Assembly: GCA_035640355.1 (NCBI GenBank)
Contig: DASQWI010000006.1
Span: forward strand, 1-64,000
DNA length: 64,000 nucleotides
Origin: Actinomycetota bacterium
Lineage (GTDB): Bacteria; Actinomycetota; UBA4738; HRBIN12
Direction of reading: 5' to 3'
A model generated the notes under the pieces. That model worked only from the letters and a program-made list of their open reading frames with translations. It ran no database searches and was not told the origin of the DNA. Positions 24,646-30,050 of the stretch are shown here, piece by piece (position 1 is the first letter of the stretch; every line of letters starts with the position of its first letter). The translations under genes and the position numbers were made by a program.

Positions 24646-27026
24646 CGGGCTGGCTCCTTCCGGGTCTTGCCGCGGCGCTGTGGCTCGGCTTGCTCGTGCG
24701 TCCGCTGGTCGGTGAGCGAGCTCCAGTACTCGTGTGGATGCTCGCAACGGCGGTGGCCTTCGGGGCAGCGGTCGGGTGCGCGCCGCGGATCGTTCCGACC
24801 GACGCGTTGCAACCGTTGGTGTCGGAGCCGCAGGACGCGCGGCTGGTCGACTCGGTCGCTCCATCGCGCTTGCGGCGTCGGCGCGCTCCGCCGTGGCTCG
24901 TCGGTGCACTGGCGCTCGTCGGTGCCCTCACGCTCGGGGTCGGTTGGGGGAGCGCGCAGGCACACCGGATCGAGGGGGCGTTTCTCGCGCGCGTCGCGCC
25001 GGCGAGTGTGACGGTCGACGGGTCGCTTCGAACCGATCCGAACGTGGACGGCGACCGATGGAGCGCCGTCGCGGACGTCTCGTTCGCGGAAACGGAGGAC
25101 GCGGCCGCGCGGGCTCGAGAATCGGTATGGGTCGACGGCCGCGGCGAGGCGCCGAACGCCGTGCGCGGCGACCAGGTCCGCCTAGTCGGGCGCGCCGTCG
25201 TCTCCGACGATGCGCAGTTCGCCGGGTTCCTCTCGAGCCGAGGTCTCGTCGCGGAGCTTCAGGTCGATTCGGCGACGCGGCTCGGCCCGTCGAGCGTCGC
25301 GTTCGTCAGGTGGGCGCAGTCGTTTCGAGCGCTTGTCGGCGGATCGATCCGCGAGCTGTTCCCTTCGCGCGAGGCCGGCCTGCTGCTCGGGCTCACGCTC
25401 GGCGACGACTCGCTGCTCGATCCAGAGGTCGAACGCGACTTCCGCGCGAGCGGTCTGTCGCACCTGCTGGTCGTGTCGGGCGGGAACGTCGCGATGGTCC
25501 TCGCGCCCGTGCTCGCACTCGCGGCGGCATTGAAGCTGTCGCCATGGCCGAGGTTCGCGCTCGGCGTCGGGACCGTCGTGTTCTTCGTCGTGCTGACGGG
25601 TGCCGAGCCGTCGGTTCTGCGCGCAGGAGTCATGGCCGGTCTGACGCTGTTCGGCGTGATGCTCGGTCGACCGAGGAGCGCCGCGTCGATCCTGTCGGCG
25701 TCGGTGTTCCTCCTGCTCGTACTGGATCCCGCGCTCGTGTGGTCGGTGGGGTTCCAGCTTTCCGTCGCTGCGACCGCGGGCATGGTCGCGTTGGCGACGC
25801 CACTCGCCGATCGCATGCCCGTGCTGCCCAAGCCCATCGCGCTCGCGGCGGGCGCGACGGTTGCCGCCCAGATCGGCGTGACGCCGGTGCTGCTCTACCA
25901 CTTCAACGAAGTGCCGACGTCGACGTTGTTCGCGAACGTGCTCGCCTTCGCGGCCGTCGCCCCGAGCCTGTTGCTCGGCCTCGTGGCGGCGTTCGTCGCG
26001 ATCGTGTGGTCGTCGCTCGGACGCCTGCTCGCGGCGATCGCGCTCCTGCCGCTCCGCTACCTCGAGATCCTCTCCGATCACGCCGCTCGGGCGCCGGCTC
26101 CGTGGATCACCGGCGGAGGCATGGCGACGCTCGTGCTTGGCCTGTTGTTCGCGGCCGCGTTCGCGTGGTGGATCCGTTCGGGACGGCGACCACCGCGTTT
26201 GGTGATGCTCGCGGGACTCGTCCTCGCGCCCCTCCTCGTCTGGTCGACCGCGCTCTCGTCGGGGCCGCCGTCGGGGCTCACCGTCCGGTTCTTCGACGTG
26301 GGGCAAGGCGATGCGGCGTTGCTCACGTCGCCGGCGGGCGTGACGATGCTCGTCGACGGTGGGCCGGACGAGGCGCAGGTTGCGACGGAACTCGCGGCAC
26401 TCGGTGTCAAGCGGCTCGACGTGGTCGTGGCGAGCCACCCGCACGCGGATCACGTCGTCGGTTTGCCCGCGATCTTGGCCCGCGTACCGGTTGGGCTCTT
26501 GATCGAGCCGGGCTGCGCCGACGACTCGCCCGACGGCGAGGGGCTCGCCGACGCGGTCTCCGATGAGGGCGTACCGGTTCGTCATCCGCGCGCCGGGGAG
26601 GTCTTCGTCGTCGAGGACGTCGTCGTCGAGGTGCTCTCGCCCGATCGGTGTTGGAAGGGCACCGAGTCGGATGCGAACAACGACGCGATCGTGCTCCGCG
26701 CGAGCGTCGGCGAGGACACGGTGCTCTTCGCCACCGAGCCCGAGGAACCCGCACAACAGGTGATGCTCGACGACGGCGTCGATCTTCGCGCCGACGTGCT
26801 CAAGGTGCCGCACCACGGAGCAGCAACGTCGCTCGAGGAATTCCTCCTGGCGGTCGATGCCGAGCTTGCGGTCGTGAGCGTCGGACCCAACACGTACGGG
26901 CACCCGGTACCGGAGGTCCTGCAATGGCTCGGCGACGGTGGAGCGGAGGTGCTCCGCACGGATCAGGCCGGCGACATCACCGTGTCGTTCTCGCCGTCGG
27001 GGCCGCTTGTACAGTTCGCGGCGTGA
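24642..27026 (+). CDS. comEC: ComEC/Rec2-family DNA uptake channel with metallo-beta-lactamase domain
   Basis: A 794-residue membrane protein from GTG 24642. Two or three N-terminal helices precede an OB-like DUF4131 domain, then the Competence domain with about eight helices, including FRASGLSHLLVVSGGN, the family signature. The C-terminal third is a metallo-beta-lactamase domain with FFDVGQGDAALL and the metal motif SHPHADH at 598-604, followed by KVPHHGAATSLE. It is the inner-membrane channel for single-stranded DNA; the lactamase-like domain is thought to be a nuclease. Overlaps on both sides couple it to comEA and holA. Confidence 0.94.
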   Translation: MTGWLLPGLAAALWLGLLVRPLVGERAPVLVWMLATAVAFGAAVGCAPRIVPTDALQPLVSEPQDARLVDSVAPSRLRRRRAPPWLVGALALVGALTLGVGWGSAQAHRIEGAFLARVAPASVTVDGSLRTDPNVDGDRWSAVADVSFAETEDAAARARESVWVDGRGEAPNAVRGDQVRLVGRAVVSDDAQFAGFLSSRGLVAELQVDSATRLGPSSVAFVRWAQSFRALVGGSIRELFPSREAGLLLGLTLGDDSLLDPEVERDFRASGLSHLLVVSGGNVAMVLAPVLALAAALKLSPWPRFALGVGTVVFFVVLTGAEPSVLRAGVMAGLTLFGVMLGRPRSAASILSASVFLLLVLDPALVWSVGFQLSVAATAGMVALATPLADRMPVLPKPIALAAGATVAAQIGVTPVLLYHFNEVPTSTLFANVLAFAAVAPSLLLGLVAAFVAIVWSSLGRLLAAIALLPLRYLEILSDHAARAPAPWITGGGMATLVLGLLFAAAFAWWIRSGRRPPRLVMLAGLVLAPLLVWSTALSSGPPSGLTVRFFDVGQGDAALLTSPAGVTMLVDGGPDEAQVATELAALGVKRLDVVVASHPHADHVVGLPAILARVPVGLLIEPGCADDSPDGEGLADAVSDEGVPVRHPRAGEVFVVEDVVVEVLSPDRCWKGTESDANNDAIVLRASVGEDTVLFATEPEEPAQQVMLDDGVDLRADVLKVPHHGAATSLEEFLLAVDAELAVVSVGPNTYGHPVPEVLQWLGDGGAEVLRTDQAGDITVSFSPSGPLVQFAA

Positions 27027-28009
27027 CCGAGCGGAAAGGGAGTTCGACGAACGCCGCGAGGAGACCGATCCACCTCTTGTGGGGTCACGACGACTTCCTC
27101 CTTCGCGCCGCGGCCCTCGAGCTCTTCGGCGACGTGCGTCCGCGAGAGGTCGATGCGGCCGAATGGGTGGGCGGCGAGACGGCCGACCTGGCGACGCCGT
27201 CGTTGTTCGGCGAGGCGCGTGGGCTGCTCGTTTCGAACGCCCGCGCTCTGCGCGAGGACGCGGTCGCCGAGCTCCGGCGGTACGTCTCGGCGGCCGATCC
27301 GAACGCGATCCTCATCCTCACCGCGACCGTCGGTGAACGCGCGAAGCCGCCGGCCGGCCTGCTGAAGCTCGTCGAGGGCGTGGGGTCCGTGAGGGAGGTG
27401 CGCTTGCAGCGCAAGGAGCTCGGGGGATGGATCGGAAAGCGCGCCACGGCGACGGGCCTGAACCTCGCCCCCGACGGCGTCCAGGCGCTCATCGAAACGA
27501 TCGGAGAGGACCCGGCGGCGCTCGATCAGGCGCTCGAACAGCTCGTCGCCGCGTTCCCCGGTGAGCGCATCACGCGCGGCGTGGTGACGAGGCAGTTCCG
27601 AGGCCTCGGTGACCAGCACATGTGGGACTTGTGCGACAAGGCGTTCACCCGCGACATGCCGGGTGCGATGCGATCGCTCCGAACGCTACTCGAGGCGCGG
27701 GACGCAGGGCTTCCGATCCTCGGAGCGATCGTCTCGCGCCTGCGAGACCTGATGCGCCTTCGTTCGTTGCCCAACCGCGTTCCTCTGGGCGAGGTCGCGC
27801 GGCAGGCCGGTCTGCGGTTCGAATGGCAGGCCAGGCGGTACCGCGATCAGGCCCGCCGGTTCAGCCTCGATGAGCTCGTCCTCGTGCACGAGCGAGTGGC
27901 CTGGGCCGATCGCGCGCTGAAGTCCGGCGCGACCGACGACGTGGTGCTCCCGTTGGTGATCGCGGCGATCGCCGGAGACCCGGCCGACGTTCCGGTGACG
28001 CCGATCTAG
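27023..28009 (+). CDS. holA: DNA polymerase III subunit delta
   Basis: A 328-residue protein from GTG 27023, which overlaps the comEC stop by 4 bases; longer in-frame extensions lie inside comEC. It has the HolA pattern: an N-terminal HLLWGHDDFLLRAAALEL segment in place of a P-loop, a central NAILILTATVGERAKP strand, KELGGWIGKRATATG, then a helical third domain with FTRDMPGAMRSLRTLLEA and an ending rich in WADRALKSGA. It is the clamp-loader subunit that opens the beta clamp. The comEC-holA-rpsT association is common. The gene is convergent with the HAD-HerA fusion, 12 bases away. Confidence 0.92.
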   Translation: MTERKGSSTNAARRPIHLLWGHDDFLLRAAALELFGDVRPREVDAAEWVGGETADLATPSLFGEARGLLVSNARALREDAVAELRRYVSAADPNAILILTATVGERAKPPAGLLKLVEGVGSVREVRLQRKELGGWIGKRATATGLNLAPDGVQALIETIGEDPAALDQALEQLVAAFPGERITRGVVTRQFRGLGDQHMWDLCDKAFTRDMPGAMRSLRTLLEARDAGLPILGAIVSRLRDLMRLRSLPNRVPLGEVARQAGLRFEWQARRYRDQARRFSLDELVLVHERVAWADRALKSGATDDVVLPLVIAAIAGDPADVPVTPI

Positions 28010-28021
28010 GAACGGACCCGG

Positions 28022-29731
28022 TCAGGGCGACGCTTCCGCGGGCACCGTGTAGCGCTCCGAGACGGCATCGAGGATCTCGCGCCGGCTCGTCTCGGCATCC
28101 GTGTCATTCGCGACACGCTTCGCAACCTCTCCGAGCGCCTCGTCCTTGATCACGTCACGGAACCACCTCTCGTAGTCGCCGCGGCCGAGGTGCCACAGCC
28201 ACGTCTCGTCGTCGACGCCCTCGGCGATCTGCGCGAACACCGCGAGGTTCTGCGCCTTGAGGTTCAGCCTGTCGTCTGGTCCGCGGAAGAAGAACGCCTT
28301 CTCCTCGACGTCGCCCTGCGCGTACTTGCGGCGGTGCCTTCGCCGTTCCTGGCCCGGTTCGACGGGGGCGAACGCGATCGGGGACTCTTCGACGAACCAC
28401 GCGACGGCCTGCCCTTCGTCCGGTCGAACGGCGTCGTCCCGCGGCGGCTCGACGCCTACAACGTTCGCGAACTTCCCCAGGGACTCGCTCGCTCCCTTGG
28501 AGGGCGTCAGCACCAGGTTCACCGGTTCGAGTGCCGCCGGCGACATCGCGTCGGCGTGCACGGTGACCATCACGACCGAGGCGACCCGTCGCGGGAGCGT
28601 CGCCTCCGGCGTCTGCAGGCCCGACGGGAGCAGGTGGTGCGCCTCGTCCACGACCAGCCAGTGCGGACGGCCGGTCTCGGCGCGCAGCTCCTGGAGCCTC
28701 GGTAGGAGCGAGCTCAGGAAGCCCGGACGGTCGTCGAGCCGCTCACCGAGCAGGTTCAGGACCAGGTTGATGTCGGGATCGACGAGCGCGTCGAGCGCCT
28801 CGTCGACGGTCGGTGCCCCGTCGTGAGATCCGAGGACCACCCCGTGCTCGAGCTCCTCGTAGTCGCCTTCCGGATCGATCAGGCAGAACTGGTACGCGTG
28901 CTCCACCAGCTCTTCGAGGAACGCCGTGACGAGCGTCGACTTCCCACTGCCGGATGGTCCGGTGACCAGCACGTTCGTGCGGTAGGGCCGAACCCGCACC
29001 GGTTCGCCGTCCTCGGCGGTCCCGATCACGATGTCGTGACGTGGAAGGCGCTCGTCGAGAAGCTCGAGGTCCGACTCGAGCAGCCCGTCGCAGAGCTCGC
29101 GAACGCCGTCGCCCCGGGTGCCGTTCGTCACGTAGTCGCATCGGTCCTTCACGGCGGGGAGCGCGTTCGCCACGGCCACCGAGAGCTCGCACGCATCGAG
29201 GAACGCGTGGTCGTTCTCCGCGTCGCCCACGCCGACGACGTTGTGCGGCGACAGTCGCAGCTCGTCGAGGGCCGCTGCGAGTCCCGACGCCTTCGTGACG
29301 CCGGCCGGCAGCACCATCACGGCGCCCTTGTTGAAGATGATCTGCAGCTCGAGGCCGAGCTCGTGGATCGCTTCGATCACGGTCGTCTGGTGCGGCTCCC
29401 ACGTCGCGACGATGACGTGACCGACGGAGAGTGGCTCGACGGCGCGTTCCTTCAGCGCGTCGACGAACGCGGGCGGAGGCGCTTCGGTCAGCGCTCGGGC
29501 GTTTCGCGTGGCCGGATCGAACAGCACCGCGCCGTTCTCCGCCACGACTCGGTCGAACACGTCGAGTCGGTCGAAGGCTTGGCGAAGGTCCTCGAGCTCG
29601 CGGCCGGTGACCAGGATCGTCCGGCGGCCGCTTTCGCGAACGCGTTCGATCGTCTCGACGACGTCGTCCGGGACAACGCCGTCGGTGGCAATCGTGCCGT
29701 CGTAGTCAGTGGCCAGGGCCACGTATCGCAC
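28022..29731 (-). CDS. Fusion of HAD-superfamily phosphatase and HerA-like ATPase
   Basis: A 569-residue protein in one uninterrupted frame. Residues 1-225 are a type IIB HAD phosphatase: DYDGT with D9 and D11, VTGR near 41-44, K146 and GDAEND at 169-174, so all four motifs are present. Residues about 245-470 are a P-loop ATPase with Walker A GPSGSGKST at 258-266, Walker B WLVVDEAHH with D362/E363, and the LIDPEGDYEELE segment typical of HerA/FtsK-like ATPases. The last 100 residues are helical. HAD IIB enzymes hydrolyse sugar phosphates; HerA-type ATPases form hexamers on DNA or act as NTP-driven motors. How the two halves cooperate is not known to me. It is downstream of rpsT on the same strand. 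Confidence 0.88.
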   Translation of the reverse strand: MRYVALATDYDGTIATDGVVPDDVVETIERVRESGRRTILVTGRELEDLRQAFDRLDVFDRVVAENGAVLFDPATRNARALTEAPPPAFVDALKERAVEPLSVGHVIVATWEPHQTTVIEAIHELGLELQIIFNKGAVMVLPAGVTKASGLAAALDELRLSPHNVVGVGDAENDHAFLDACELSVAVANALPAVKDRCDYVTNGTRGDGVRELCDGLLESDLELLDERLPRHDIVIGTAEDGEPVRVRPYRTNVLVTGPSGSGKSTLVTAFLEELVEHAYQFCLIDPEGDYEELEHGVVLGSHDGAPTVDEALDALVDPDINLVLNLLGERLDDRPGFLSSLLPRLQELRAETGRPHWLVVDEAHHLLPSGLQTPEATLPRRVASVVMVTVHADAMSPAALEPVNLVLTPSKGASESLGKFANVVGVEPPRDDAVRPDEGQAVAWFVEESPIAFAPVEPGQERRRHRRKYAQGDVEEKAFFFRGPDDRLNLKAQNLAVFAQIAEGVDDETWLWHLGRGDYERWFRDVIKDEALGEVAKRVANDTDAETSRREILDAVSERYTVPAEASP

Positions 29732-29774
29732 CGCGCACTCCTACCCGAGGAGGTGACGAACGACGCCTGGAGGG

Positions 29775-30050
29775 CTACTCGCCCGACGCGGCGGCGCGGT
29801 TCGCCGCCTTGGCCAGGCGTGACGCGTGGCGCGCGGCGGCGCGCTTGTGGATGACGCCCTTCGAGGCGGCGCGGTCGTACGCGCGAGCCGCGTCGCGGGC
29901 GCCGGCCAGGGCGGCGTCACCATCACCGCTGCCCGCAGCGGAGGTGACCTTCTTCGACGCCGTCTTGAGGGCGCTGCGGACCGCCTTGTTGCGCTTGCGG
30001 CGGTGCTCGTTTTGGCGGTTGCGCTTGATCTGCGACTTGATGTTGGCCAT
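29775..30050 (-). CDS. rpsT: 30S ribosomal protein S20
   Basis: A 91-residue, very basic and alanine-rich protein starting [18 protein letters not shown], with [20 protein letters not shown] near the end: the usual S20 pattern. S20 binds 16S rRNA helix 44 and the 5' domain. The gene is on the opposite strand to holA and lepA, and a TAGACT box 9 bases before its ATG makes it divergent from lepA. Confidence 0.96.

Follow-up and report, generated by a model that had tools for sequence, protein, structure and literature searches.

What might a sugar-phosphatase-like enzyme do with a P-loop ATPase of the HerA type built into the same polypeptide? The question is raised by a gene on the minus strand of the window (the whole stretch of 64,000 nucleotides analysed here). 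The first-pass annotation had described it as a HAD phosphatase joined in one frame to a HerA-like ATPase and had suggested either NTP-driven control of the phosphatase or a phosphatase for nucleic-acid ends that rides on a hexameric motor. The fusion was confirmed: the open reading frame is single and uninterrupted, and both parts were recovered by Pfam and in a PDB fold search. The adjoining rpsT and holA genes were verified by Pfam, and the quoted HAD and Walker A/B motifs are present at the given positions, except that the HAD lysine is Lys147 and not Lys146. The strand had not been given and a conserved C-terminal domain (residues ~475–565) had been overlooked. An AlphaFold2 single-chain model of the fusion protein has a mean pLDDT of 88.7 and a pTM of 0.77, and by sequence or model the protein consists of three intact domains that are conserved together. 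We favor, with a probability of roughly 0.45, a reading of the protein as a stand-alone, horizontally spread metabolic phosphatase with an ATPase switch and an OrfY docking unit, the step of which would be tied to the ATP level. The coordinates of the features are summarized in Table 1.

Table 1. Features of the fusion gene, its product and the flanking genes
Feature	Position in window	Strand	Details
HAD-IIB / compact HerA-FtsK ATPase / OrfY-unit fusion gene	28022..29731	-	569 aa; GTG start at 29731
HAD-IIB phosphatase domain	29066..29731	-	Residues 1–222; D9, D11, T42-G43-R44, K147, G169-D170..N173-D174
P-loop ATPase domain, HerA/FtsK fold	28352..29065	-	Residues 223–460
ATPase motifs			Walker A 258–266, DPEGDY 286–291, Walker B D362-E363, sensor strand T390-V391-H392
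C-terminal part	28025..28351	-	Residues 461–569; basic linker, then OrfY/DUF5752-type helical unit
rpsT (ribosomal protein S20)	29775..30050	-	PF01649, 5.4e-25
holA (DNA polymerase III delta)	26990..28009	+	PF21694; convergent with the fusion gene

The rpsT gene lies on the same strand as the fusion gene and ~43 bp upstream of it, and the two are possibly co-transcribed. Antisense to the fusion gene runs a 343-residue open reading frame (window 28823–29854, plus strand); comparable antisense frames recur in relatives, and this one is likely to be a side effect of G+C-rich codon usage.

The N-terminal domain matches Hydrolase_3 (PF08282) at 4.4e-26, over the Pfam cut-off, and is assigned to the HAD-IIB class by the NCBIfam model TIGR01484 (HAD-SF-IIB) with 83.3 bits against a cut-off of 41.8. 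HAD-IIB enzymes act on small metabolites. The nearest models are those of phosphoglycolate, Cof and sucrose-phosphate phosphatases, and the fusion protein scores under the NCBIfam cut-off of every named phosphatase equivalog shown, including the phosphoglycolate phosphatase model TIGR01487 (97 bits versus 122.75). In a PDB fold search with the model, the first 36 matches and most of the later ones are HAD enzymes, the best structure being 1wr8 with a TM score of 0.84 by target length. The domain resembles this protein (PH1421, of the archaeal type described by TIGR01487) in its fold, its four HAD motifs and its reduced C2B cap, but the fusion protein falls under the TIGR01487 cut-off and carries two extra domains. 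Trehalose-phosphatase (PF02358) is not among the 20 Pfam families that match at E ≤ 0.01. The genome itself contains a separate PF02358 trehalose-phosphatase gene; T6P is thus not an orphan step, and the role of a missing trehalose-phosphatase was rejected. Plasmid pC052_B of Nostoc sp. C052 (L022:7001-7666) encodes a stand-alone HAD domain with no ATPase nearby, 60% identical over 221 residues to the fusion HAD domain and 67% identical to that of a cyanobacterial member. As this homologue lacks the other domains, the HAD part may be able to function alone.

The first-pass assignment of the second half to the P-loop ATPases also held: Pfam and the PDB fold search reveal an intact ASCE-type domain with the HerA/FtsK fold. 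Pfam matches comprise AAA_16 (2.1e-10), AAA_22 (1.1e-9) and DUF87/HerA (PF01935; 1.9e-6, 28.6 bits against a cut-off of 23.2), the last of which aligns over residues 252–295 only and is found in 55 of 57 aligned members. The first non-HAD matches of the fold search are the HerA chains of the SIR2/HerA complex. With HerA and the HerA of SIR2–HerA (PDB entries 8wiv and 8woc) the domain shares the Walker A motif, a DPxGDY-type motif after strand 2, a DEAH Walker B motif and the core fold. The DEAH-type Walker B with its catalytic glutamate disfavors a PNKP-like kinase/phosphatase pair. Five residues of the two Walker motifs (Gly258, Gly263, Lys264, Asp362 and Glu363) are invariant in 57/57 sequences, a pattern that points to nucleotide binding and hydrolysis having been retained. 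This invariance speaks against the reading of the protein as a plain metabolic phosphatase in which the ATPase and OrfY regions would serve oligomerization only, without energy coupling; such an enzyme would agree with the HAD-only homologue of Nostoc C052, and we consider it unlikely.

Beyond this core, the domain departs from HerA in several respects. The N-terminal HAS barrel is absent, with the phosphatase in its place, and strands 2 and 3 lack the long insertion that separates them in HerA: the spacing from DPEGDY to Walker B is 76–77 residues in all 57 members, compared with about 200 residues in a HerA from the same phylum (L157; read from its sequence), and a profile–profile alignment with that HerA covers the stretch from Walker A to DPEGDY only. 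The 'AREMRK' helix of HerA, located between Walker B and the sensor strand, contains an arginine that has no conserved counterpart here (no column across positions 366–390 exceeds 13/57 Arg or Lys), and the sensor strand carries histidine instead of glutamine. Arg335, located in another helix, is invariant in the 57-sequence alignment. Judged from its sequence, the ATPase is a HerA/FtsK-fold core that lacks the elements on which the DNA-motor function of HerA depends.

This compactness bears directly on the second of the earlier ideas, which can be spelled out as a hexameric DNA motor, formed by the HerA-like part, that delivers the HAD phosphatase to ends with a 3' or 5' phosphate, or with a 3'-phosphoglycolate. 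The fold match, the DUF87 score over the cut-off, an Arg335 that could act in trans and a conserved basic linker (residues 465–473) would all suit such a motor, as would the phosphoglycolate phosphatases that come closest among HAD models; phosphoglycolate is also formed at oxidized DNA ends. Against it stand the missing HAS barrel and insertion, the nonconserved helix arginine, the small-metabolite character of the HAD-IIB class and the link of the C-terminal domain to trehalose genes, and in the neighbor comparison neither NurA nor any other DNA-repair gene recurs near the fusion gene. With a compact core and no conserved neighbor, the proposal of a DNA-end phosphatase on a motor is poorly supported and was not upheld; we regard it as quite improbable. 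Of the two earlier ideas, NTP-driven control of the phosphatase is the better one.

The C-terminal part begins with a conserved basic linker (RHRRKYAxG) of low pLDDT, and the conserved unit downstream of it is almost wholly helical. A profile of this region matches OrfY from Thermoproteus tenax (PDB entry 4cso, deposited as a transcription factor) with an E-value of 7.7e-4. When the region was modeled separately, 4cso was ranked first by Foldseek with a probability of 0.98 (next best 0.15) and was the only credible PDB match, although taken alone this fold match is weak as its E-value is only 0.28. An hhalign comparison with DUF5752 proteins gave 96%. DUF5752 (PF19027) matches 11 of the 57 members at E ≤ 0.01; among the members scored against it, the Pfam cut-off of 23 is not reached (19.6 and 14.2 bits for two members), and the domain encoded in the window has no match. 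Profile, profile–profile and fold methods together indicate that the unit is homologous to OrfY/DUF5752. The fusion protein carries a single OrfY unit joined to enzymes, whereas DUF5752 proteins are encoded by separate genes beside TreT: all four full DUF5752 loci examined (L115–L118, from the same phylum) adjoin a gene for a TreT-type glycosyltransferase, and in L117 a trehalose-phosphatase gene is adjacent as well. The genes of L117 were confirmed by Pfam and TreT was assigned in the other loci by sequence similarity. Pfam still lists the function of DUF5752 as unknown, and no paper mentioning the name was found in the open-access literature searched; a dedicated partner or regulator of TreT is a plausible role. 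One OrfY-type unit also occurs in a very long response-regulator/PEP-synthase-like (PPDK_N) reading frame (L112:1-3243, minus strand), and for this reason the unit can be viewed as a mobile module. A precedent for partner dependence is provided by the T. tenax trehalose-6-phosphate synthase/phosphatase, a fusion with a HAD-type sugar phosphatase the activity of which depends on a partner glycosyltransferase (PMC3634074). There the phosphatase is joined to a GT20 synthase, whereas here it is joined to an ATPase, and OrfY goes unmentioned in the text of that paper.

The three-part architecture is widespread. At least 532 loci in the species genomes scanned encode a relative, and the best 80 of these match over essentially the whole length, nearly all with 48–66% identity. 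These 80 derive from Cyanobacteria, Melainabacteria, Planctomycetes, Acidobacteria, Chloroflexi, Nitrospirae, Rokubacteria, Myxococcota, Alpha-, Beta- and Gammaproteobacteria, a Bacteroidetes MAG and Actinobacteria. Twelve plasmid records from eight genera also carry a relative; in 11 the tblastn match spans almost the whole protein, with 42–49% identity. Within the family, three of 17 genomes contain the gene, the two other copies being 95% and 67% identical. The first-pass annotation had raised the possibility that the fusion might be an artefact absent in close relatives; it is present in these two, and with full-length relatives in family genomes, on plasmids and in many phyla an assembly error was rejected. 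The HAD residues Asp9, Asp11, Gly43, Arg44, Lys147, Gly169, Asp170, Asn173 and Asp174 are invariant in the 57-sequence alignment, and Thr42 is conserved in ≥90%. Relative to the 95% identical copy, dN/dS is 0.16 overall (HAD 0.19, ATPase 0.17 and C-terminal part 0.10), and all three domains are under purifying selection.

The comparison of gene neighborhoods bears out the earlier remark that the gene has no known partner: no gene family recurs beside it across phyla, only generic families repeat, and a conserved operon partner was rejected save for a link to GT4, glucose dehydrogenase (GDH) and debranching-enzyme genes in a few loci. In Aminobacter the neighbors are genes for trehalose-6-phosphate synthase (TPS), a debranching enzyme and a GT4 glycosyltransferase; in Paraburkholderia and Caballeronia, GT4 and PQQ-glucose dehydrogenase genes stand beside the fusion gene; and an Obscuribacterales MAG (L077) has a debranching-enzyme homologue nearby. 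The GT4 proteins of three plasmid loci are mutually homologous, as are the two glucose dehydrogenases. Sugar genes thus flank only a few members, with stress genes near the fusion gene in other loci, and their presence is suggestive of a link to carbohydrates. An anti-phage or stress effector, in which the HerA-like ATPase senses invasion and the HAD domain drains a pool of nucleotides or sugar phosphates in the style of SIR2–HerA, would accord with the patchy, horizontally spread distribution, with the likeness of the ATPase to the HerA of SIR2/HerA and with the PADLOC match of mad8 (residues 233–371, 2.7e-13). This match is not a full one, and membership in a defense system was rejected. No defense genes recur among the neighbors, full-length matches are absent from the phage collection, all three domains have been conserved over the long term and the gene is surrounded by core genes and does not lie in a defense island; we therefore rate this role as improbable.

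The metabolic reading that we favor can be set out as follows. The HAD part would dephosphorylate a small phosphorylated metabolite, either a sugar phosphate or a phosphoglycolate-type compound. The ATPase would switch the conformation or assembly of the phosphatase in an ATP-dependent manner and would not be a DNA translocase, and the OrfY unit may dock the protein to another one, with a glycosyltransferase or a glucan/trehalose enzyme as the most plausible partner. The net effect would be to couple the phosphatase step to the ATP level of the cell. The HAD-IIB assignment, the conserved catalytic residues, the compact ATPase, the OrfY homology, the adjacency of DUF5752 and TreT and the occasional sugar-gene neighbors all point in this direction; the sub-cut-off equivalog scores, the lack of a widely recurring neighbor and the trehalose-phosphatase of the same genome appear to count against it. 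A more ambitious version, in which these proteins form a phylum-crossing group of ATP-gated metabolic phosphatases, each a HAD sugar-phosphatase regulated by a minimal HerA/FtsK-type ATPase devoid of DNA-motor elements and coupled by OrfY to glucan/trehalose synthesis, is offered as a speculative extension that we hold to be rather doubtful.

If the ATPase does gate the phosphatase, a HerA/FtsK-type fold would serve metabolic control instead of DNA pumping, and the unexplained OrfY/DUF5752 module would gain a testable role. Existing annotations, where present, read only 'HAD-IIB family hydrolase' or similar, though the full-length form spans many phyla. No paper describing the fusion was found in the open-access literature searched, which is weak evidence of novelty as most subscription papers lie outside that search, and the three-part architecture appears to be undescribed. 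Hosts of some members (Sinorhizobium, Mesorhizobium and cyanobacteria) can be cultured and are genetically tractable, which makes the function testable.

The surroundings of rpsT are a variable spot in the family, with gaps of 0.6–1.6 kb in other relatives (L145, L146 and L149). In several relatives (e.g. L143, L144 and L152) holA and rpsT are directly adjacent, without the fusion gene. In G007 (L150) the fusion gene lies in the interval from rpsT to lepA, across rpsT from its position in the window, behind a 450-residue reading frame which we take from its sequence to be a glucose/sorbosone dehydrogenase. A quick tree groups the lineage of the window with Acidobacteria and Ktedonobacteria (91% SH-aLRT), apart from other Actinobacteria (Planobispora), and places the cyanobacterial members in one group. 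The patchy presence in the family, the differences in the side of rpsT and this grouping fit acquisition by horizontal transfer together with rearrangement of the local gene order. Other Actinobacteria (L108, L109, L110, L113 and L114) contain a second, divergent subfamily in which the three parts follow one another in the same order. The genome that carries L114 (G112) also has an apparently frame-broken copy of the fusion gene (L107, contig C50).
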